Assembly (NCBI RefSeq): GCF_030160075.1 | Contig: NZ_BSNQ01000009.1 | Span: 926,295 to 990,294, forward strand | Origin: Dyella lipolytica | GTDB lineage: Bacteria; Pseudomonadota; Gammaproteobacteria; Xanthomonadales; Rhodanobacteraceae | DNA length: 64,000 bases | Direction: 5' to 3' | In this document: positions 1,488 through 10,149 of the stretch, in pieces | Position numbering within the stretch: the first letter of the stretch is position 1 | Layout: each line of letters begins with the position of its first letter | Position numbers and translations under genes: made by a program | The notes under the pieces: generated by a model | Databases searched by the model: none | What the model was told of the DNA's origin: nothing | Seen by the model: only the letters and a program-made list of their open reading frames with translations

Positions 1488-1563
<76 letters not shown>

Positions 1564-1600
1564 TCCTGAGCAACCTGGCATTAAAGAATGCGCGGTTAAC

Positions 1601-1629
1601 CATAGTTTGGCCGCAATGGCCAAACTATG
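1601..1629. repeat. Perfect inverted repeat CATAGTTTGGCC-N5-GGCCAAACTATG
   Basis: Twelve-base perfect arms flank a GCAAT spacer, 37 bases after the tRNA 3' end. A further half copy (AGTTTGGCCGC) follows at about 1644. The same 16-base core, GGCCAAACTATGGTTT, recurs at 14252, with one change at 14275, and at 60213, so this is a dispersed intergenic element. Function unknown. Confidence 0.7.
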
Positions 1630-1749
1630 AGAGAAATCTCACAAGTTTGGCCGCGAACTACCGGAAGGGAAACCATGCGTTCCGTCGCGCCTCCGAGTTA
1701 GTGGCCCGATATTGCAAAGAGCAGTAGGTCAGCTTTGGCGAAGCGGACA

Positions 1750-2028
1750 TTACTCCGGCTTGAGCACCAACAGTCCGTTCGACGCAAGCAAGCGCGCAAG
1801 AACGTAGTGGCCGAAAGCTGCGTATTCGTCCTCGGACAGCTCTAAAGCGGAGAGCTCAGATCGCTCGTAGTCCTTGAAGGTCACGAAGATATCGTGCCGC
1901 CACTGTCCAGGATTGCCAGGGGCCTGATTTGTGACGTCATCTAGTACAACCCGTAGCATCCCATCTGTGAGTTCCAATACGCTGCAGACTACCGCTCGCG
2001 CACCCCGTTCCTTATCACTGCTATCCAT
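1750..2028 (-). CDS. Hypothetical 92-aa protein
   Basis: I do not recognise this protein. The ATG at 2028 is chosen because AGGGGTG sits three bases upstream; an upstream start at 2070 has no such site. The protein is acidic and soluble, with a predicted beta-rich N-terminal half (VVCSVLELTDGMLRVVLDDV, HDIFVTFKDY) and a helical C-terminal half (SEDEYAAFGHYVLARLLASNG). It lies downstream of, and in the same direction as, the ubiquitin-like conjugation operon, but a terminator separates them, so it is probably transcribed on its own. Confidence 0.5.
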   Translation of the reverse strand: MDSSDKERGARAVVCSVLELTDGMLRVVLDDVTNQAPGNPGQWRHDIFVTFKDYERSELSALELSEDEYAAFGHYVLARLLASNGLLVLKPE

Positions 2029-2075
2029 AAGCACCCCTAAAAACCTGCTGATCGTCGCACCCGACCCCAAAACAT

Positions 2076-2105
2076 AAAAAGGTCTGCTGTTGGTCGAAAG
2101 CAGAC
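2076..2105 (-). terminator. Rho-independent terminator ending the ubiquitin-like operon
   Basis: On the minus strand GTCTGCT pairs with AGCAGAC across a ten-base loop, followed by CTTTTTATG. It lies 57 bases beyond the stop codon of the membrane-protein gene. Confidence 0.75.
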
Positions 2106-2161
2106 GTCAGCGACCGGCTTACTGCTGCAACAGAGAACATCGGGCGCATTGATCGTCACCT

Positions 2162-2884
2162 TTAATCAACGCCATTGCCCGACTTCGGCATGAATCGGTG
2201 TCCAGTAAGAACTGAATCGGTGCCCATAAATCGCATCGACTTTCGTGACGAAAGCGAAGTGTTCGCTCTTGTGGACTGCGCGAATTGTCCAGACGGGCGA
2301 GGATACACCTCATCAATTCTCAATAATCGATCTGCCATAAGATATTTAAGAGATGCGAACAGTAGTGCTTGCATTGCGACGATGCTTGCTAGCATCCACA
2401 GTGTAATTACTGCGACGGGAACGTGATCTTTGAGGAATGGGCTGACCAAAATCATCAAGAGATAGACGAGCAGCCCGGCTATGACAAAATAATCAAACTT
2501 TCGCCGATAGGTGAGTCGCGGATTCTCACGCCTGTCCTCGATGTCTAAGCCATCCGGCTTAAGTCTTACGAGGCCACGAGTATCCTTAAACGCTTTCAGT
2601 ACCGTGATTGGACTGTCGCGGTCCAGGGAGAAACGTATGACGTCACCTGGTAGCTCGATGCCAATAGCATCCTTTACAGCGACCTGAAGTGCAGCGGATG
2701 AGGCTGTTCGCCACTTCTCCTTGCCGCAGACAAGTGCATAGAAGCGTTTCGTTTTGCTTTGCGAAAGGCGTAGGTTGCCATGCTTGAACTTAGCAAGTGC
2801 CAGCATGGCTCCTAAGGGTGCCGTAATGGAAAGTAAAACCAGGTGGCTTTGTTCAACGAGGCTGGAAAGATTTGCAACATCCAT
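2162..2884 (-). CDS. Membrane protein, fifth gene of the ubiquitin-like operon
   Basis: I do not recognise a family. The chosen ATG at 2884 has AAAAAGGAATCC directly upstream. An in-frame GTG at 2935 overlaps the E1 stop codon (GTGA) and is the alternative. The 240-residue product has one hydrophobic N-terminal segment (LVLLSITAPLGAMLALAKF), about 100 polar residues with a RRENPRLTYRRK basic patch, and two adjacent membrane helices (YFVIAGLLVYLLMILV; VAVITLWMLASIVAMQALLF). A polar tail of about 60 residues follows. It is transcribed with the Ubl-E2-JAB-E1 genes and may be an accessory factor, target or effector; that role is inferred from position only. Confidence 0.65.
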   Translation of the reverse strand: MDVANLSSLVEQSHLVLLSITAPLGAMLALAKFKHGNLRLSQSKTKRFYALVCGKEKWRTASSAALQVAVKDAIGIELPGDVIRFSLDRDSPITVLKAFKDTRGLVRLKPDGLDIEDRRENPRLTYRRKFDYFVIAGLLVYLLMILVSPFLKDHVPVAVITLWMLASIVAMQALLFASLKYLMADRLLRIDEVYPRPSGQFAQSTRANTSLSSRKSMRFMGTDSVLTGHRFMPKSGNGVD

Positions 2885-2931
2885 TGGATTCCTTTTTTTG
2901 AATGGAAGCAAACGTTTATTAGGGACAATTG

Positions 2932-4338
2932 TCACGCCAAATAGCGCTCAGGCCATAGAAGTCTGAGCGCTTTCCCGGTGTGCGGGTCTCCGCAAAACTC
3001 GCAGGTCGGCAAACGACGCCTTCTCCGGCGTAGACTCCGATGCGGCGGTTGCCAAGGTGATGCGAAGAAGTAGTTGTCTCTGGAACTCTGGTTCTTATTT
3101 TTTTCAAATCGAACCAATTCCAGTGCCAGGAACACGCCGGCGAGGTTCGATATAAAGGCAAATGGTGCCGCTGCTTGTTTTCCTGCTTTCGTCAGCAGAG
3201 CACCCTCGCCGCATTGCTTCTTGTAAAACGTATCCAATGAAGTGCCAATGATGGATTCAGCATCAACTCCTGGAAAATTGGCCGCAAGCTTGGTTGCTAT
3301 GCCACGATCGATCAGCGGAGTTCTAATTTCTTCGATCGTCAATCCAAGCTTTTCTGCGAGGTGTTTATCTTGCTGAAGTTCGTCATGCGTATGCGCGTAT
3401 ATGCACGATAGGCAGGCGCCTTCATTGGGTAGGCTGTGAGAGTGAACAACAATTTCACTGATATCCGTGGTGGACGCATCCAGGACCTCCGCGGGAAGCT
3501 CACCCTGAATGGAACGCCGCGCTCGCCGGCTGTCCGTGGTTACAATGACACGAGTGGCTTTCTTTCCTGGCCGATCGGCAAGATGCCGGTGCAGGTCGCA
3601 TTGAACCGGGGTGATGTGAAGCCCAGGAAGGTTCACTCGCTCTGCAAGGAGCTCGGCCTTGCCGCGACCTACATCACCTAAATCAAAATATAGGCATCTA
3701 TTGCTGTTTCCAGCGGAAACTTTTTTCGGGTCGACGATGGCAATTTCGCCATGAAGCTTAAGCTCGTCGGCTGCCCAGAGAAATCCGTTCGCGACGCCCC
3801 CTGCTCCGACCAGGACAGTGTCTGTCAATTGAATGGGACGTTCGAGATCCTCTGCAGTCACCCCTAATGCCGCAAAGTTGAACACGAATGGCTCAGGTAC
3901 GATTGCAAATGGCGAGGACGCGTCCGCTTGTTGACCTACAGAGCAGGCGATGACGTGGCCTGCTATGTAGCAGGCAGCGGCTTTCCGGAATAGGCCGTGT
4001 AAATCGGTGGGGGCATCTACCTCATAACTATGACTTTCAGAACCGGGAATAACATTCCGGATGACGATCCCGTCAATGGATACCTCCACGCTCAAGTGCA
4101 TTGGCGCATTGGTCACAGGATGAGCTTGGATGCAGAGCTCCACATCGCAAGGCTCATTAGGTTCTGCAACAGCGATGGTGCGTTCAAGAAGGCGTTGGAC
4201 GTCTTCCGCTAGCTTGATAGCAGGGACTGAGTTTCCGCATGTGACTCGGACACGAATCGCCAGTTTTTTTGTGGCTTCTTCATGCGACAAGCCCGTGGCG
4301 CTCATCAGTGTGCGAATATTCTCTTCGGTGTCGTACAT
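2932..4338 (-). CDS. bilD: E1-like (ThiF/UBA fold) activating enzyme of a bacterial ubiquitin-like conjugation system
   Basis: Residues from about 170 form a ThiF/E1 adenylation domain. It has the nucleotide loop VGAGGVAN (178-184), the acidic end of the next strand IVDPKKV (D203) and a following NSNRC segment. A CLSC pair at about 309 and CEFC at about 446 make a likely zinc site, as in E1 enzymes. About 165 N-terminal residues have no recognised motif. E1 enzymes adenylate the C-terminus of the ubiquitin-like protein and pass it to the E2. The gene starts six bases after the JAB stop codon. Because the E2 is separate and there is no nucleotidyltransferase, this is not a CBASS Cap2. The order Ubl-E2-JAB-E1 matches BilA-BilB-BilC-BilD. 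Confidence 0.85.
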   Translation of the reverse strand: MYDTEENIRTLMSATGLSHEEATKKLAIRVRVTCGNSVPAIKLAEDVQRLLERTIAVAEPNEPCDVELCIQAHPVTNAPMHLSVEVSIDGIVIRNVIPGSESHSYEVDAPTDLHGLFRKAAACYIAGHVIACSVGQQADASSPFAIVPEPFVFNFAALGVTAEDLERPIQLTDTVLVGAGGVANGFLWAADELKLHGEIAIVDPKKVSAGNSNRCLYFDLGDVGRGKAELLAERVNLPGLHITPVQCDLHRHLADRPGKKATRVIVTTDSRRARRSIQGELPAEVLDASTTDISEIVVHSHSLPNEGACLSCIYAHTHDELQQDKHLAEKLGLTIEEIRTPLIDRGIATKLAANFPGVDAESIIGTSLDTFYKKQCGEGALLTKAGKQAAAPFAFISNLAGVFLALELVRFEKNKNQSSRDNYFFASPWQPPHRSLRRRRRRLPTCEFCGDPHTGKALRLLWPERYLA

Positions 4339-4344
4339 AAGAAT

Positions 4345-4806
4345 TTATTTCACAATCTGGAGAACATGGTCGAACTGGACTTCGCGCCAGTTGTCGGTGG
4401 CGTCCAGCTGATATACAGCCGCCTTCTTGGAAAAATCTGCTACACAGGTGTCGGACGCGAAGCGGGGCAAGACGAGTGACAGCGCGCCAATATGCCTTAC
4501 CACTGCCCATGCATCGTCAGCAGATGAGTGGAACGCCAGGCCCGGATGGGAATGGACTTGTGCAACAATTTTTGTTCGACTACGGCGAAGTTCCGCCATG
4601 AGTAGGCGCATGGATGAAGCAGGGATGCGGAAGTAGTCGATGGAAACTTCCTGTTGCGGTAAGTACACGTCGGTGATTTGAATACTTTCGCCGACGTCTC
4701 GTCCAAGCCATAGCACGACGGTTTCGCAGTTCCTTTTAGCTCCTTCCTGCAGATGGCTAATAGTTTCTGCGACTATGGAGACCGGGCATTGGAATACTGT
4801 GCTCAT
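4345..4806 (-). CDS. bilC: JAB/JAMM metalloprotease, probable deubiquitinase
   Basis: A 153-residue single-domain JAMM protein. The zinc ligands and catalytic residues are all present: Glu28 (CETVVLW) and H85-S-H87-x7-S95-x2-D98, the full HxHx7Sx2D pattern. Such proteins trim the C-terminus of the ubiquitin-like modifier before activation and remove it from targets. The ATG overlaps the E2 stop codon as ATGA, so the two are translationally coupled. The Ubl in this operon ends one residue past a glycine run, consistent with a need for trimming. Confidence 0.88.
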   Translation of the reverse strand: MSTVFQCPVSIVAETISHLQEGAKRNCETVVLWLGRDVGESIQITDVYLPQQEVSIDYFRIPASSMRLLMAELRRSRTKIVAQVHSHPGLAFHSSADDAWAVVRHIGALSLVLPRFASDTCVADFSKKAAVYQLDATDNWREVQFDHVLQIVK

Positions 4807-5228
4807 GGACCTACAGCCTTACGCCATGCACTGGATAGTTGAACGAGTAGACCCGGCAAGTTCATCCCATCCTGGCCCCGGTAATTTTCCCAGCGGTCGC
4901 CAAGATGGCTGCTATGTGTGTGGTATTCCCGAAAACCGCGCATACATATAAATGGCTTGCCGGTGATGGGGTGCGCATCTTGGTGAAAGACGCTGCCGGG
5001 AAGGTTTTTCGGGTCAGAGCCGTCCGCGGACATCAAGATCGCTGACGGTGGGAGTTCTGGCCAGTTGTCGCAGAGGAGCCGTACTCTCAAAGGCCGGCTG
5101 CCCAAAAATGTCACCTCGACGTGTGGATAGTCCTTGGAATGGACTATCCACCGTTTCGCTTCTACAAGCCGCTCCGACAGGAATTCGACATCTTGTTCGA
5201 AGTGGGATTTGGAGAGGGCTTCATGCAC
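4803..5228 (-). CDS. bilB: E2-like ubiquitin-conjugating enzyme
   Basis: A compact 141-residue protein with the bacterial E2 pattern: beta-strands (PHVEVTFLG, LRVRLLCDNW), a WPELPP turn, and a single Cys at about 95 in KPFICMRGF as candidate catalytic residue. It continues with a HTHSSH segment and a DRWENYR helix. E2 proteins accept the modifier from E1 and transfer it to targets. The start is uncertain. The GTG at 5228, overlapping the Ubl stop by eight bases and preceded by GAGGG, is preferred over an in-frame TTG at 5258 that has no ribosome site. It is coupled to the JAB gene by ATGA. Confidence 0.75.
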   Translation of the reverse strand: MHEALSKSHFEQDVEFLSERLVEAKRWIVHSKDYPHVEVTFLGSRPLRVRLLCDNWPELPPSAILMSADGSDPKNLPGSVFHQDAHPITGKPFICMRGFREYHTHSSHLGDRWENYRGQDGMNLPGLLVQLSSAWRKAVGP

Positions 5229-5502
5229 CGCCGCCGCCCTCGGGTTTATGCCACTCAATTTCGACGATGTTGTGGAGGGCGTTGCCCTCGAATGACTTAC
5301 TCACGTCGACCGGGCGGTTGTCGACAAAGGCCTCCCAGTCGGAGGTGTTCGTCAGGCCCAGCTTCTCGGCGGCAGCCTTCAAGATGACACTCAACGGCTC
5401 GGTGCTGTAGGTGCGACGGTAATCCTCTACGTTCGGGAAGGTGCCGCTGGTCGTGATGACCGCGACGGCTATTGGTTTCACATCGTCCTGCTGGTCGTTC
5501 AT
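5221..5502 (-). CDS. bilA: Ubiquitin-like modifier (single beta-grasp domain, glycine-rich C-terminus)
   Basis: A 93-residue protein of the DUF2604-like Ubl type. It has an N-terminal hairpin (IAVAVITTSG), a central helix (LSVILKAAAEKLGL), later strands (DWEAFVDNRPVDVS, NIVEIEWHK) and a C-terminus EGGGGA. The terminal glycines are the likely conjugation point. BilA of the first described systems has two beta-grasp domains; this one has room for only one, like type II systems. The ATG at 5502 has GAAAGG nine bases upstream. It is the first gene of the operon, and its promoter overlaps the palindromic operator at 5562-5600. Confidence 0.78.
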   Translation of the reverse strand: MNDQQDDVKPIAVAVITTSGTFPNVEDYRRTYSTEPLSVILKAAAEKLGLTNTSDWEAFVDNRPVDVSKSFEGNALHNIVEIEWHKPEGGGGA

Positions 5503-5538
5503 GTCGATGGGCCTTTCAAGGAGGGGGGCGTGGCTATG

Positions 5539-5567
5539 TTTATCCCACGAACATTCCCGAGTGTCAA
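5539..5567 (-). promoter_or_regulatory. Promoter of the ubiquitin-like operon
   Basis: Read leftwards, a perfect -35 TTGACA (5567-5562) is followed after exactly 17 bases by GATAAA (5544-5539) as -10, four of six matches to consensus. The -35 box is the outer end of the left arm of the operator palindrome, so bound repressor would block it. Confidence 0.7.
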
Positions 5568-5600
5568 TAGCAATGACATGAAATGTCATTGCTATTGACA
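5562..5600. promoter_or_regulatory. Perfect 18+18 bp palindromic operator between the XRE gene and the Ubl operon
   Basis: The two 18-base arms (TGTCAATAGCAATGACAT and its exact complement) are separated by GAA. Each arm is itself a TGTCA-N7-TGACA site, giving four half-sites. Both outer ends read TTGACA outwards, so the element carries a potential -35 box for each divergent operon. It is the expected binding site of the XRE protein encoded next to it. Confidence 0.8.
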
Positions 5601-5651
5601 TCCCCTTCTGCCTGGCGGAACCTTAGGCTCGCCTACCCACGTAGCCAAATA

Positions 5652-5978
5652 ATGGAAAACAAAGAGTATTACGAACTTCTCGGGTCAAAGCTCCGCGAGG
5701 GGCGTGAAGCTGCTGGCCTAACTCAGGATCAGCTCGCAAAAGCTGTCGGTCTCTCGAGAACTTCGGTGACAAATATTGAGCGAGGCCGTCAACGGCTAAT
5801 GTTGGATCAGTTTGAGTCGCTCTGTTCTGCGGTCGGTAAAACTTCTTCCGAAGTACTCAGCAGCACGGCGTCGCTCAATTACCGTAACGCGCAGCCAGCT
5901 AAACACGATCTTCGCTCTATGCCGGAGGTGGCGCGTTTTGTTAACGAAGTCAAGAAAGGTAGTGGTGGTCTGAAATGA
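5652..5978 (+). CDS. XRE-family HTH repressor
   Basis: A 108-residue regulator. Residues 9-62 form a Cro/C1-type helix-turn-helix (LREGREAAGLTQDQLAKAVGLSRTSVTNIERG, split over helices 1-3), followed by a tail ending in EVKKGSGGLK. The ATG at 5652 is chosen because the HTH begins a few residues later; an upstream start at 5583 would lie inside the operator. It overlaps the next gene by ATGA. XRE proteins paired with an ImmA protease are typically mobile-element repressors removed by proteolysis. Here the likely targets are its own promoter and the divergent ubiquitin-like operon. Confidence 0.85.
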   Translation: MENKEYYELLGSKLREGREAAGLTQDQLAKAVGLSRTSVTNIERGRQRLMLDQFESLCSAVGKTSSEVLSSTASLNYRNAQPAKHDLRSMPEVARFVNEVKKGSGGLK

Positions 5979-6514
5979 CTGCATCGCGACCTCGATACGC
6001 GCGCATCAACAAGATGGTTGAAGGGCTACTGTCGGACAACAACGTACATGCCGCACCAGTTCCGGTCGAGATGATCGCGAAAAGCCTGGGCGCAACGATT
6101 GCTTACCGAGATTTCGATGAAGATGTCTCCGGCCTACTTATACGTCAGGGTGACTCGTCCGTAATTGGAGTTGCGGAAAACCAATCCCAAGAACGACAAC
6201 GGTTCACGATTGCCCATGAGCTGGGCCATCTACTCCTGCATGAAGGGCAGGAAGTCCACGTAGATAAATTATTCAGAATTAATTTCAGGTCGAAAGCCTC
6301 CTCGACAGCGGAGGACGTGCAAGAAATCGAAGCAAATACCTTCGCTGCAAATTTACTCATGCCGCGCGCTTTTTTAATCAAGGATGCGGCAAAACTCGAC
6401 CTTGATTTCGAAGATCAGGGCCATGTGCAATCTCTAGCATCGCGTTACGAGGTTAGTGCCCAGGCAATGACCTTTAGGCTTCTAAATTTATTCGGATACT
6501 CAGAGAGCGCCTGA
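5975..6514 (+). CDS. ImmA/IrrE family zinc metallopeptidase
   Basis: A 179-residue DUF955-type protein with the zinc motif HELGH at 81-85 inside FTIAHELGHLLLH, and a downstream third-ligand region EIEANTFAANLLMP, both typical of ImmA. ImmA of ICEBs1 cleaves its partner repressor, and IrrE/PprI does the same with DdrO. It is translationally coupled to the XRE gene, so it most likely inactivates that repressor in response to a signal. This would open the operator controlling the ubiquitin-like operon. The last inference is from arrangement only. Confidence 0.88.
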   Translation: MTASRPRYARINKMVEGLLSDNNVHAAPVPVEMIAKSLGATIAYRDFDEDVSGLLIRQGDSSVIGVAENQSQERQRFTIAHELGHLLLHEGQEVHVDKLFRINFRSKASSTAEDVQEIEANTFAANLLMPRAFLIKDAAKLDLDFEDQGHVQSLASRYEVSAQAMTFRLLNLFGYSESA

Positions 6515-6516
6515 GA

Positions 6517-6885
6517 ATGTTTGGCTTTGGATTGTTCAAGCAGTTTTTGGTGCGGTGGAAAGGCATTGAGCCAGCACCACAACAGGTGCGAACTTCAGAG
6601 AAAAATGACTCTGGTTCCTTTCGTACCCAGCAAAGTCGTTTCTCTATCGCTCGATTTGAAGGTTTAGGCGATCCTCCGGCAGGGCATTGGAAGCACTGTC
6701 ATCCATCGACGATGAAGCGATTCAAGGCGGAAATGACATGCCCGAATGGACATGGACTCGTCTTGAAGTCTCATGCAATTAAGCCAGATGGCATCGTTTT
6801 TCCGAGCGTCGTATGCCAGGCTCGGGGATGCACCTTTCACGAATTCGTTTTGCTACGAGGTTGGGACAAGGGCGAGCTTCGCTAA
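6517..6885 (+). CDS. Hypothetical zinc-ribbon-like protein
   Basis: Not recognised. It begins two bases after the ImmA stop, so it is probably the third gene of that operon, although no clear ribosome site precedes the ATG. The 122-residue product has a basic, aromatic N-terminus (MFGFGLFKQFLVRWKG). Its C-terminal half contains CPNGH at about 74, then CQARGC about 25 residues later, the spacing of a small zinc ribbon. A nucleic-acid or protein-binding role would fit but is not shown. Confidence 0.55.
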   Translation: MFGFGLFKQFLVRWKGIEPAPQQVRTSEKNDSGSFRTQQSRFSIARFEGLGDPPAGHWKHCHPSTMKRFKAEMTCPNGHGLVLKSHAIKPDGIVFPSVVCQARGCTFHEFVLLRGWDKGELR

Positions 6886-6941
6886 CGTTGTATGGGATCG
6901 TTTTTACACCGTTCACGTAGACGTCTCGTCTGACGAAAAGC

Positions 6942-7031
6942 ATGGTGCGCAAGGTTCTCAATGTCGACAACCGCAGTACCATCATGTTCAGAACACCGAT
7001 GGAGTACGTGAAGGATGGGCCCGGACACTGA
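6942..7031 (+). CDS. Possible 29-aa upstream ORF
   Basis: ATG at 6942 opens a 29-codon frame (MVRKVLNVDNRSTIMF...) whose stop overlaps the start of the HEPN-like gene by 17 bases. No good ribosome site precedes it. It may couple translation to the next gene or be the remnant of a longer gene; it is reported because the HEPN-like gene lacks a well-spaced site of its own. Confidence 0.25.
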   Translation: MVRKVLNVDNRSTIMFRTPMEYVKDGPGH

Positions 7032-7665
7032 GTTCGTTTATGTCGATCCCTATAAGGATGAACGGCCTTCGCCGAACCATTATCTCGCGGAAGAGCACCG
7101 TTATTTCTCCGCGCATCATTTGTTGCTTGAGACGGCACGGGAGGCGGCCGAGAGTCCACGCGAAGATCCTACCGGTCAGCGTCAAGCCGCGCTGACATCA
7201 ATAGCGATGAGCGCGTTGACGGTTGAGGCATTAGCCAACGCGGTCGGCAATCTAGTGATAGAACGTTGGGCTGCTGACTTTGACCGCCTCTCGCCGATAC
7301 CGAAACTGCGCCTGATCTGTCAGGCCATTAGCTTCGACATGCAGCCCGGGCATGAGCCCTGGCAATCGATTGGTTGGCTGGTGAAATTGCGCAATCGTAT
7401 TGCGCATCCCCAGCCAGAACATGTTCAAGCTCGGCGTTGGCTCAACGCCGAGGAAGCGCGCGAGCTATCTCGGAATAGGATGGAGATCGACATCCCTGAC
7501 TCCGAGTTAGAAAAGGAATTAACGCTTGCCAATGCCAAGCGAGCCGTTGCGGCGGTCGATGCATTGATCAAGCTTCTGATGGACGTCATGCCATCCGAGC
7601 ACAAATACGCGTTGGAATCGAATCTATCAATGTCTGGTGCGTATGAAATGCCGCCGGACGTTTAG
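7015..7665 (+). CDS. HEPN-like protein (RxxxxH motif)
   Basis: A 216-residue, mostly helical protein. The segment WLVKLRNRIAHPQP carries R126-x4-H131, the metal-independent RNase signature of HEPN domains. It lies in the expected place near the end of a helix preceded by another long helix (LTSIAMSALTVEALANAVGNLV). HEPN proteins act as toxins in toxin-antitoxin, abortive infection and CRISPR systems, but many RN-x-IAHP members are uncharacterised. An in-frame TGA six bases before the ATG rules out a longer start. No partner antitoxin is evident beside it. Confidence 0.65.
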   Translation: MGPDTEFVYVDPYKDERPSPNHYLAEEHRYFSAHHLLLETAREAAESPREDPTGQRQAALTSIAMSALTVEALANAVGNLVIERWAADFDRLSPIPKLRLICQAISFDMQPGHEPWQSIGWLVKLRNRIAHPQPEHVQARRWLNAEEARELSRNRMEIDIPDSELEKELTLANAKRAVAAVDALIKLLMDVMPSEHKYALESNLSMSGAYEMPPDV

Positions 7666-7702
7666 ACCAACGAGCCGGCTCAGGGATTTATACCCGGGTT
7701 TC

Positions 7703-7810
7703 CTAGAACGAGGAGTTGATATGATCGGGCAGCGGCTGGGTATTGCCGCCGTACCGATCAAGATTGCGCAACTGCGCTATGCCACCCTCATCCAGGGCGA
7801 AATCCCACAT
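7703..7810 (-). pseudogene. Possible gene remnant in the HEPN-channel spacer
   Basis: The minus strand here has a short, strongly protein-like frame (MWDFALDEGGIAQLRNLDR...) that stays open upstream to about 7900 without a usable start codon. The opposite strand has a 42-codon frame from ATG 7721 with a GAGGAG site. The two exclude each other, and neither can be proven. A decayed end of a longer gene is the simplest reading. Confidence 0.25.
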
Positions 7811-7901
7811 GATCAGACTCTCGGCAACCAGCACACACGACAGCAGTAAACACCGGCGCCGATAGCTACCGCCAGTATCGCCAACGAGACCATAATGATG
7901 A

Positions 7902-8720
7902 TTAGAGCTTGGCCCTAATATCCAATGAAAGATTCTTCACTATGTCCTGATAGAGGCCGCCACCCTTATAGGGCAGAATCATGTAACGGGTGTAGGTGAC
8001 GTATTTCGTGTTGAATTCCTCAATCTCATCGCAGAGTTGTTCAACAATCTGTTTAGTGCGCGGCGTATTCCATGGCACGTTGCCAGAAGCAAGGATATTG
8101 ACGTATTTTCGCGTGAAGCCGGTTAACTCCTCAACGTGGTTGGCGGCACGCTCAATACGATTGGATAGCGCGGTTGCGCGACCAATTCCCTCAATATGCG
8201 CCGTGTAGCCATTAATTCCCTGCATTGCTCGCAGCGCCGGATAGAAGGGGTTTGCTAGGTTATAGAAAAACTCAATCGGCAAAACCGGCTGATTCTGCTG
8301 TATCGAGCGACGGCGATCGCCGATGCTCTCTTTGGCATTCACGATGGTAGCGATGCACTCATCGTAAGTTTGCATGAGCCGATCACTAGTCAGGTATTCA
8401 ACGAGAGCTTCCTGCTTAGCAGAAAATATCTGAGATATTGAGTAGCCAACAAAGACAAGCCCAAAGATCACTTCAATACAGGCAACTAAGCGGGCCCATC
8501 CCAGTGGTTGCAGGTCTCCATAGCCAAGTGTCGTAGCAGTTGTGACGCTGAAGTAAATGCAATCTAGAAACGTTGCGGTGCTTTTATCTGGTGTTATGAA
8601 TTCATTCCCTATAGCCTCTCCAAGGACCTGGTAGATAGCACCAAAAATTAAAATCCCAAAGAGGAAAATAGCTAATAGTTTTGCTGCCAGTTTCGCAATT
8701 TGCTTGGATGAAGGTGGCAT
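7902..8720 (-). CDS. Two-TM potassium channel protein with soluble C-terminal domain
   Basis: A 272-residue protein. An N-terminal membrane helix (LLAIFLFGILIFGAIY) is followed by a pore loop with the potassium selectivity filter TLGYGD (64-69) and a second membrane helix (LVACIEVIFGLVFVGYSI). A helical cytoplasmic region of about 170 residues then has no recognised RCK/TrkA-N motif. Ion_trans_2 family members form tetrameric K+ pores. The gene is downstream of the SDH-family protease gene on the same strand with an 85-base gap. Membrane channels occur as effectors in some defence systems, but that role is speculative here. Confidence 0.8.
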   Translation of the reverse strand: MPPSSKQIAKLAAKLLAIFLFGILIFGAIYQVLGEAIGNEFITPDKSTATFLDCIYFSVTTATTLGYGDLQPLGWARLVACIEVIFGLVFVGYSISQIFSAKQEALVEYLTSDRLMQTYDECIATIVNAKESIGDRRRSIQQNQPVLPIEFFYNLANPFYPALRAMQGINGYTAHIEGIGRATALSNRIERAANHVEELTGFTRKYVNILASGNVPWNTPRTKQIVEQLCDEIEEFNTKYVTYTRYMILPYKGGGLYQDIVKNLSLDIRAKL

Positions 8721-8805
8721 TTATGAAGCTCGCAATAATATTGGGCAGCTATTCGATCCAGGCTCATGTCGACGCCAGTCCACCTGGTCACCGTGAGCAT
8801 TCCCT

Positions 8806-9645
8806 TCACGGCTTGGGTTTTGCTGTCACTGCGCTGCTAACGAGTTCACCCTCGAATAATTTTGAGTACCCATGAGCATTACAGTCATAGGCGTACATAG
8901 TTCGGAGTAACCAGAGCTTTTGCCAGAGTTCGTCCTTACTATCTAGGAGTAGGACATTGAGGCCAAGCGAAGCTGCTTCGCTCGCATCGATCACTGAGCC
9001 ATGGGAATGATAGTGATCGCGGCTCGCTAACTTCTTCACCACCGCATCAACTTCTTCTGGGGTCTTGCCGCTCATCATTCCTGATTTAAGAAGAACAGTT
9101 GCTAATTTAGTAGTTTGAGCCTGGAAAGTTTGCGCGATCTGTAAAGTGAGGGGATCAATGGCGCCTGCTGGCGCATTGAGCAGAAAGTGAATTGGGGTCG
9201 GGCCGAGATTAGGATCTATAGGTCCAAGCTCAGAGCTTGCAGACATAACAATCTGCTTTGCGCAAAGCGCAATGACGGTGCCGTTACTCTTCGCTCGCCG
9301 CGGAACAATGACACGTAAGTCAGGGGCTAGCTGACGAAGCAGCGCGCATATCTTCTCTGTTGCGTCGGTAAAACCGCCATGCGTTTCAAGCAACAAATCG
9401 ACACCTTCTTTCTTACGAGCATTTAGTAGCTCGAGAAAGAATTGATCATCACCTGGATCTATTTGCGCTTCGGTGCGATCGATATCAGTGAAATAGACAA
9501 TAAGATCACGGCCCGTAGACTCCTGAATGTCTTTGATCAAGAGTTGCCGTAGATATCGATCTTTGTGAGTCACCCAAAAAAGGGGCGACTGTGCAGGTAT
9601 GGTCTTACCCCGCGGAAAGCACTCCGTCACTATCGACATCCTCAT
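8806..9645 (-). CDS. SDH_sah-family Clp-fold serine protease-like protein
   Basis: The 279-residue product matches the serine dehydrogenase proteinase family (SppA/ClpP fold). Its features are LLLETHGGFTDA at 85-96, where the strand-turn of the oxyanion region sits; RRAKSNGTVIAL with Ser120 as candidate nucleophile; and SSELGPIDPNLGP, which is very characteristic. These proteins are membrane-linked or soluble Clp-fold hydrolases of uncertain substrate. The N-terminus overlaps the preceding small gene by 41 bases if the ATG at 9645 is used; GTG at 9630 is an alternative. It is followed by the potassium channel gene. Confidence 0.78.
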   Translation of the reverse strand: MRMSIVTECFPRGKTIPAQSPLFWVTHKDRYLRQLLIKDIQESTGRDLIVYFTDIDRTEAQIDPGDDQFFLELLNARKKEGVDLLLETHGGFTDATEKICALLRQLAPDLRVIVPRRAKSNGTVIALCAKQIVMSASSELGPIDPNLGPTPIHFLLNAPAGAIDPLTLQIAQTFQAQTTKLATVLLKSGMMSGKTPEEVDAVVKKLASRDHYHSHGSVIDASEAASLGLNVLLLDSKDELWQKLWLLRTMYAYDCNAHGYSKLFEGELVSSAVTAKPKP

Positions 9646-9844
9646 CGACGATTACTTCGCGACCTGGACGCGCTTCACGGAGGCGTTGAATATCCGCCAA
9701 CAACCCTTGAAGTGGGTCCACTCCCGGGGCGAACGCAACATCGTCACGCACCAACTCCTGCCGAGAACGCATACCGAATGCATCTATGTCAGTGGCACTG
9801 ACAACGGATGCTCCATGAACTGAACTCGACAAGTATTTGTACAT
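9605..9844 (-). CDS. Small hypothetical protein upstream of the SDH protease
   Basis: A 79-residue protein of unknown family. The ATG at 9844 is chosen because AAGGGGGA lies six to seven bases upstream. It has a short serine-rich start, an acidic C-terminal half (LLADIQRLREARPG, EVIVDEDVDSDG) and no membrane segment. Its end overlaps the start of the protease gene, suggesting coupled translation and perhaps a partner or inhibitor of that enzyme. That link is an inference. Confidence 0.55.
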   Translation of the reverse strand: MYKYLSSSVHGASVVSATDIDAFGMRSRQELVRDDVAFAPGVDPLQGLLADIQRLREARPGREVIVDEDVDSDGVLSAG

Positions 9845-10149
9845 GATGTCCCCCTTGGGGAAGTTTCCACTATTGGCGGGGAATTTTAAATGCCACCCTA
9901 GCTCAGGCGATGAGATTAGAGTCGCACGGTAGGCCACCTGTGCCTTGAGATTACTTTAGCAAAAAAACGTTAAATTTCAATGAAATATTGGAAATATTTG
10001 AGCTTAAACCACACATTTAGGAGAAATTCTGACTTTCCCGAACGAACGAACGTGCAGCAATCCGAAGCTCCTAGCGAAGCACTCAGGCTCCGGTGATTGG
10101 ACACCCTACCTACTGATGGGTTCACATGGTGGGGTAACCTTTTCTCGCC

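Follow-up and report, generated by a model that had tools for sequence, protein, structure and literature searches.

A ubiquitin-like conjugation operon of Dyella lipolytica, predicted to belong to a sister branch of Bil, and a small Cys/His protein linked to it

Introduction

A stretch of 64,000 nucleotides from Dyella lipolytica (NZ_BSNQ01000009.1, positions 926,295 to 990,294; hereafter the window) contains a compact operon that encodes a ubiquitin-like protein (Ubl), an E2, a JAMM/JAB protease, and an E1, followed by a membrane protein gene, and the question that it raises is whether this is a Bil operon with a fifth component. Bil is an antiphage system in which the Ubl is joined to the central tail fibre of the phage (PMC13373217, PMC11354881, PMC11364771, PMC12948488). 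The original prediction took the first four genes for BilABCD and regarded the membrane gene as the mark of a variant. The present analysis indicates that the locus is probably a mobile, DNA-damage-gated ubiquitin-like conjugation system on a sister branch of Bil, in which a small gene on the other side of the operon, gene X, is an accessory and the membrane gene is a neighbour.

Conjugation enzymes encoded by the operon

All five open reading frames (ORFs) proposed at 2162-5502 (Ubl, E2, protease, E1, and membrane protein, in this order) are present on the minus strand and are overlapping or nearly so. Pfam domains above cut-off were detected in three proteins of the core, including Metal_CEHH in E2, Prok-JAB in the protease, and ThiF and E1-N in E1, and no match above cut-off was obtained for the Ubl or the membrane protein. 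The best PDB matches were BilB for E2 (8tyz_C, 8.2e-6), BilC for the protease (8tyx_B, 1.1e-19), and BilD for E1 (8tyz_A, 3.5e-20). PADLOC scored BilC at 48.4 bits, BilD at 17.5, and BilB at 13.8, with none for BilA.

Searches of Pfam and of PDB sequences gave no convincing relative of the Ubl. Its predicted model (mean predicted local distance difference test score, pLDDT, of 81.5; 19 sequences in the alignment) matched SUMO, ISG15, and the Bil Ubl chains 8tyx_A and 8tyz_B with a probability of 1.00 and E-values of approximately 1e-5 to 1e-4. Homologues of this protein carry annotation as multiubiquitin proteins, and Pfam Multi_ubiq was matched by two of the seven members of the Ubl set (A4), with the window member not among them. 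The expected Ubl fold was recovered in this way; a model was built for the Ubl, whereas E2 and E1 were assigned their folds through sequence similarity to the solved BilB and BilD.

The JAMM residues, the E1 nucleotide loop, and the CxxC motif that had been pointed out earlier were all found, the last of these as two pairs. In the protease, E28, H85, H87, and D98 are invariant in an alignment of seven sequences. The CEHH residues of E2 are C105, E111, H113, and H118, with the same spacing (+6, +8, and +13) as C138, E144, H146, and H151 of BilB (PMC11354881); one relative (L008) has Q in place of the E. The E1 residues G178-x-G180, R214, K227, and D269 were located in an alignment of eight E1s, in which both CxxC pairs (309/312 and 446/449) are invariant. 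C376 of E1 is opposite chain position 417 of BilD, as counted by hand in the alignment to 8tyz_A, and Cys417 is the cysteine of BilD that accepts BilA (PMC11354881). The Ubl ends in EGGGGA, and the tails of its relatives read GGGG, GGGGA, GGGGASGAR, and similar; such tails would fit a precursor that is trimmed by the protease. The core chemistry of conjugation is very probably present. A sulphur-carrier or cofactor pathway of the ThiF/MoeB kind was also considered and was ruled out, because the E2, the JAB protease, and the E1 cysteine indicate conjugation.

The system is rare, since the E1 (E <= 1e-20) was found only in its own genome among 398 genomes sampled evenly across the phylum. Within the family, 33 of 233 genomes gave an E1 match, which was full-length in only three (E <= 6e-85) and partial in the others, none of these being better than 1e-9; no E1 was found in IMG/VR. 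The order Ubl-E2-JAB-E1 is identical in four plasmid relatives.

Relationship to Bil

The core shares with Bil the gene order, homologous E1, E2, and JAB proteins, the CEHH type of E2, the Ubl fold, and an E1 cysteine (C376) that is aligned with Cys417 of BilD. However, the E1 belongs to a separate branch. Two E1 profiles were compared, one (A1) from eight E1s of the window type and the other (A9) from five E1s of the NGR234 type and its kin. Against solved BilD (8tyz_A), the A9 profile scored 811 bits, whereas the A1 profile scored 126 bits; the best eukaryotic E1 reached 57 bits with A1, which was well under the value for BilD. Comparison of the profiles with each other gave a probability of 100 for E1, with 25% identity over 388 columns, and of 98.3 for E2. 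A tree built from 48 E1s paired the window E1 with that of Dyella sp. S184 (support 100/99) and placed the eight BilD-type rows in a separate, fully supported branch with the window E1 outside it. Because the tree and the profile scores separate the two groups, and because the window Ubl has one domain and BilA two as reviewed, the core, as far as sequences tell, represents a sister branch that has diverged from Bil rather than canonical Bil. The assignment of the first four genes to BilABCD thus held for the presence of a homologous Ubl-E2-JAB-E1 system and gave way to the sister branch where identity with Bil was concerned. The linkage of gene X is a further difference, as are the PADLOC scores, and this branch may be under-counted because its scores with the PADLOC Bil models are weak. 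One relative (L064) has a Ubl of 186 amino acids (aa).

Operon types 6c and 6e were described by Iyer et al. in 2006 (PMC1779556). Type 6c, with NGR234 as the prototype, has JAB beside E1 with a predicted metal-binding protein, and a table of the same source gives two genomes in which the fusion partner of E1 is a distinct domain and not E2. The JAB-E1 adjacency is shared with the window, and the E1 of NGR234 (L009) lies in the BilD branch of the tree.

Regulation and mobility

CapH-like and CapP-like genes lie divergent to the operon, outside 2162-5502. CapH and CapP form a switch of immune operons that is activated by single-stranded DNA (ssDNA; PMC13373217), and the window shares with this system a helix-turn-helix (HTH) protein and an M78 peptidase that are encoded upstream of, and divergent to, an immune-type operon. 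It differs in that the operator is proposed from sequence alone and ssDNA activation is assumed by analogy. The region between the two arms contains an inverted repeat of 39 bp (5562-5600), whose 18-nt arms match perfectly around a centre of 3 nt; it includes two TGTCA-N7-TGACA sites and is the predicted CapH operator. The window contains three such sites against 0.04 expected, and Dyella sp. S184 has one in the same interval. The third site of the window (9787-9803) is far from the operon and still inside the insertion described below. In eight loci (L068, L070, L071, L073, L074, L075, L080, and L083), an Xre/MbcA/ParS-type antitoxin and a RES-type toxin replace CapH-CapP, as checked with Pfam in L068.

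In a genome of the same genus (G005), the end of the bordering tRNA and the match to the window from 10135 onward are just 114 bp apart, and 1564-10134 is therefore regarded as an insertion; a second copy of the tRNA end, which an att-type repeat would provide, was not found within the window. In D. psychrodurans, the operon and X (E1 40% identical) follow the same tRNA and the same sigma-factor gene, so labelled from its sequence, at a distance of approximately 10-16 kb. Tn7-like genes (TnsA, TniB, and TniQ) occur near the operon in L063 and in two Dyella relatives. Among the plasmid loci, four belong to plasmids of the conjugative type, and the plasmid of L008 was typed as non-mobilizable.

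Gene X is linked to the conjugation genes

Gene X, which also lies outside 2162-5502, starts two bases after capP. It was found in three of 233 family genomes by a single-sequence search and in three of 230 by a profile, and the same three genomes hold the full-length E1; the odds that chance would place X in exactly these three of 230 genomes are approximately 1 in 2 million, ignoring kinship. Among 72,556 plasmids, X was present in three records, all of which belong to the six with E1 at a coverage of at least 80%; the plasmid gene table, which is incomplete, has no gene over the X stretch in two of the three.

A scan of genome contigs yielded no relative with a single E1 query and 44 loci with the E1 profile. 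Thirty-three loci of this branch were counted, comprising the window, 29 of the 34 genome-contig loci L058-L091, and the plasmid loci L005, L007, and L008. Four loci with a contig that is short or cut at the operon (L059, L060, L061, and L090) and L077, which is the same match as L076, were dropped, as were L004, L006, L044, and L045, which are the same places as L083, L079, L058, and L064, respectively; the near copies L068 and L073 were both counted. The X frame of L072 has just 50 aa, L081 has 152 bases beyond E1, and L007, in which neither Ubl nor E2 was found, has an IS110 gene upstream.

X is present in 22 of the 33 loci, where it adjoins Xre-RES (eight loci), CapH-CapP (seven), a set of ribbon-helix-helix (RHH), unknown, HTH, and M78-like genes (six), or another HTH gene (one, with X placed immediately behind E1); the Pfam names of the two modules other than CapH-CapP come from one example each, and the M78 match of the RHH set is below cut-off. 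D. psychrodurans has the operon and X and lacks a CapP match at E <= 1e-15, and CapP at this threshold occurs in four of 230 family genomes, two of which have neither the operon nor X. Since X is kept while the regulatory modules alternate, and CapP occurs without X in two genomes, X tracks the conjugation genes and not one regulator, and we consider it rather likely that X is a partner of the conjugation enzymes.

Nevertheless, X closes the divergent arm of regulatory genes in 18 of the 22 loci (it is oriented the opposite way in L071, L075, and L080), and zinc ribbons, which its residues resemble, commonly bind nucleic acid. Both points would suit a gene of the regulatory arm, such as an additional, third regulator, or else a small stand-alone toxin or antitoxin. 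Such a role is on the unlikely side, given the retention of X across three alternating modules, its position directly behind E1 in L087 (78 nt, in the direction of the operon), and the two CapP genomes without it.

The conserved part of the protein reads W..CHPST..RFKA...C..GH...L..H.....G...PSVVC....C.FH..V.L. All 20 sequences share C75, H79, and C105, and C100 is nearly invariant (serine in L065); this set of residues is zinc-ribbon-like and suggests metal binding. The zinc-finger protein of type 6e operons has the pattern C-x3-C-x35-38-H-x2-C (PMC1779556), which differs from C-x3-H-x20-C-x4-C of X. The predicted model is all-beta; in blocks of ten residues, its pLDDT is 86-97 from residue 41 onward and low before it. 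Foldseek searches of PDB and BFVD returned nothing at E <= 0.001. No named family was matched in Pfam (20 members), NCBIfam (the window protein), PHROGs (five members), or PDB sequences (profile). A single weak PADLOC match to Csm3 (0.018, in one of 20 members) was regarded as noise.

Homologues of X were detected in three IMG/VR contigs (L102:3829-4323, L103:5842-6201, and L104:5866-6174; profile E-values of 8e-23 to 2e-18 when the ORFs of these contigs were searched), where the neighbours are exonuclease VIII and a DnaC-like loader in one contig, portal and head morphogenesis genes in another, and a portal gene in the third; two X queries gave no match in the INPHARED phages. If X takes part in target choice, phage and host would come into conflict over it through these homologues. 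The more specific proposal that X is a zinc-ribbon-like specificity factor (an E3-like adaptor), which would guide E2~Ubl to proteins of the phage, with the phage homologues as decoys or imitated originals, seems distinctly unlikely. The literature consulted names no E3 for Bil. The retention of X while regulators change makes it a direct candidate for a role in target choice.

The membrane gene

The E1 and membrane genes overlap by 4 nt on the same strand and are likely co-transcribed, which speaks for a five-gene Bil variant with the membrane protein as its effector or anchor. However, the profile of this protein matched the window alone among the 33 loci, with nothing in the DNA around the 32 others (a few contigs end soon behind E1), and it was also not found near the operon of the 53% relative Dyella sp. 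S184; the five-gene order was not encountered in these other loci. Homologues that are 23-28% identical to the window protein occur in five other genomes of the 233 in the family and in four more in the order sample of 398 genomes, some of them as weak matches, and no plasmid match was found. They adjoin unrelated genes, and no Ubl operon lies beside them where the context was read, which was just 3.3-3.6 kb for the four of the order sample. Of these family genomes, G050 is the single one with an E1 match, which covers 99 residues and is of the ThiF type.

D. psychrodurans has a distinct, unrelated gene with six membrane segments 131 nt behind E1, and together with Tle1-like genes in Bradyrhizobium this makes a variable, membrane-acting slot behind E1 conceivable. 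Yet a same-strand ORF with at least two hydrophobic segments within 400 nt behind E1 was seen in three of the 33 loci (window, L064, and L067), as counted from crude hydropathy and mechanical ORFs. On its distribution in the family, the order sample, the plasmids, and the operon loci, the membrane gene was dismissed as a component; that it is one, whether as effector or as anchor, is highly doubtful. The fifth gene as the mark of a variant, as originally proposed, is thus not supported, nor is a conserved fifth gene, and the membrane gene is probably a neighbour within the tRNA-linked insertion.

The Tle1-like phospholipase genes (PF09994) are located behind E1 in two Bradyrhizobium loci, L067:10425-11936 (101 nt) and L072:10429-11778 (66 nt), which belong to different E1 sub-branches, and may point to a possible variable effector slot.

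Proposed function

In the favoured reading of a DNA-damage-gated conjugation system, ssDNA from phage replication or DNA damage would activate CapP, which would cut CapH and free the promoter. The protease would trim the Ubl tail behind a glycine, E1 would adenylate this glycine and take the Ubl on C376, and E2 would then receive it on C105. The target to which the Ubl is then joined would, as in Bil, most likely be a structural protein of the phage, and the protease may also reverse the attachment. X would most likely serve the conjugation machinery, as a substrate or E2 adaptor, and not one regulator. By analogy with Bil, an antiphage role is on balance likely.

A different outcome has been suggested for Bub, namely a stress-response conjugation in which the Ubl would mark host proteins after DNA damage, with no part in phage defence. 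The window shares with Bub a ubiquitin-like operon beside regulators of the CapH+CapP type; CapW or CapH+CapP accompany 219 of 544 Bub operons (PMC13373217). Architecture alone does not establish defence, because, according to that source, protection has yet to be demonstrated for Bub operons under the same regulators. An Xre-RES toxin-antitoxin pair adjoins the operon in eight relatives. In contrast, the enzymes are homologous to Bil, which is antiphage, and the cluster is on an insertion, with some relatives on conjugative plasmids or beside Tn7-like genes. The best matches of the window are Bil proteins (Bub was compared by description only), and no chain named Bub was among the PDB matches of its E1, E2, JAB, and Ubl. 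We regard a purely stress-related function as unlikely.

Several observations weigh against the reading of an antiphage sister branch of Bil with X as its partner. PADLOC is weak for BilB and BilD and silent for BilA, and the window Ubl is single (93 aa, one domain), whereas a review describes two Ubl domains for BilA (PMC11354881). The proposed CapH site recurs in one of six other CapH-CapP loci, the remaining five having none. X is absent from 11 of the 33 loci, of which nine are not from Alphaproteobacteria, and none of the 11 rows outside the branch has it; three loci without X have CapH-CapP-like genes (L076, which has only approximately 620 bases beyond CapP, L085, and L086). No E1 was found in the three phage contigs with X, a weak negative from a search without a positive control. 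Bub operons are often beside CapH-CapP or CapW and, according to PMC13373217, are without demonstrated phage protection. No experiment on this branch was found. The literature search, which did not reach the primary Bil and Bub papers, gave no publication tied to X or to this arrangement.

Features of the locus

Table 1. Positions of the operon, the divergent arm, and the bordering elements in the window.
Feature	Position	Strand	Basis or remark
Ubl (BilA-like), one beta-grasp domain	5221..5502	-	93 aa from ATG; C-terminus ...EGGGGA
E2 (BilB-like, CEHH)	4803..5258	-	Pfam Metal_CEHH; BilB 8tyz_C match
JAMM/JAB protease (BilC-like)	4345..4806	-	Pfam Prok-JAB; PADLOC BilC; BilC 8tyx_B
E1 (BilD-like), E1-N and ThiF adenylation domain, putative catalytic C376	2932..4338	-	Pfam; BilD 8tyz_A
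Membrane protein, judged a probable neighbour	2162..2935	-	3 hydrophobic segments (crude hydropathy count)
Inverted repeat in the divergent intergenic region, predicted CapH operator	5562..5600		Sequence only
HTH repressor, CapH-like	5652..5978	+	PADLOC capH 47.3 bits; Pfam HTH_31, HTH_3
M78/ImmA-type peptidase, CapP-like	5975..6514	+	PADLOC capP 127.2 bits; Pfam Peptidase_M78
X, small Cys/His protein, zinc-ribbon-like, 122 aa	6517..6885	+	Linked to this operon type
tRNA (CAT anticodon), left edge of insertion	1488..1563	+	
Insertion bearing the cluster, 8.57 kb	1564..10134		Comparison with relative G005

The Ubl and E2 genes overlap by 38 nt from the TTG start of E2, or by 8 nt if E2 begins at the GTG at 5228, which is the probable start. 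The E2 and JAB genes overlap by 4 nt, and JAB and E1 are separated by 6 nt. An ATG at 2884 is a candidate for an alternative start of the membrane gene.

Other genes of the insertion include one for a 216-aa protein (7015-7665, plus strand), which had no family match in Pfam, NCBIfam, or PHROGs. It contains an R-x4-H stretch (RNRIAH) and is perhaps a HEPN-type protein. A gene with an Ion_trans_2 ion-channel domain and a gene for a ClpP-like SDH-type serine protease follow on the minus strand (7902-8720 and 8806-9645, respectively). The bordering tRNA (CAT) is uninterrupted in the window and is split by a group I intron (Rfam RF00028) in G005 (L108:2367-2616, 73.2 bits) and in D. psychrodurans (L109:2278-2526, 69 bits). 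A nearly palindromic dispersed repeat of 27 nt has five copies in the window (2079, 17452, 20419, 21369, and 24570), with 70-100% identity to the reference copy.

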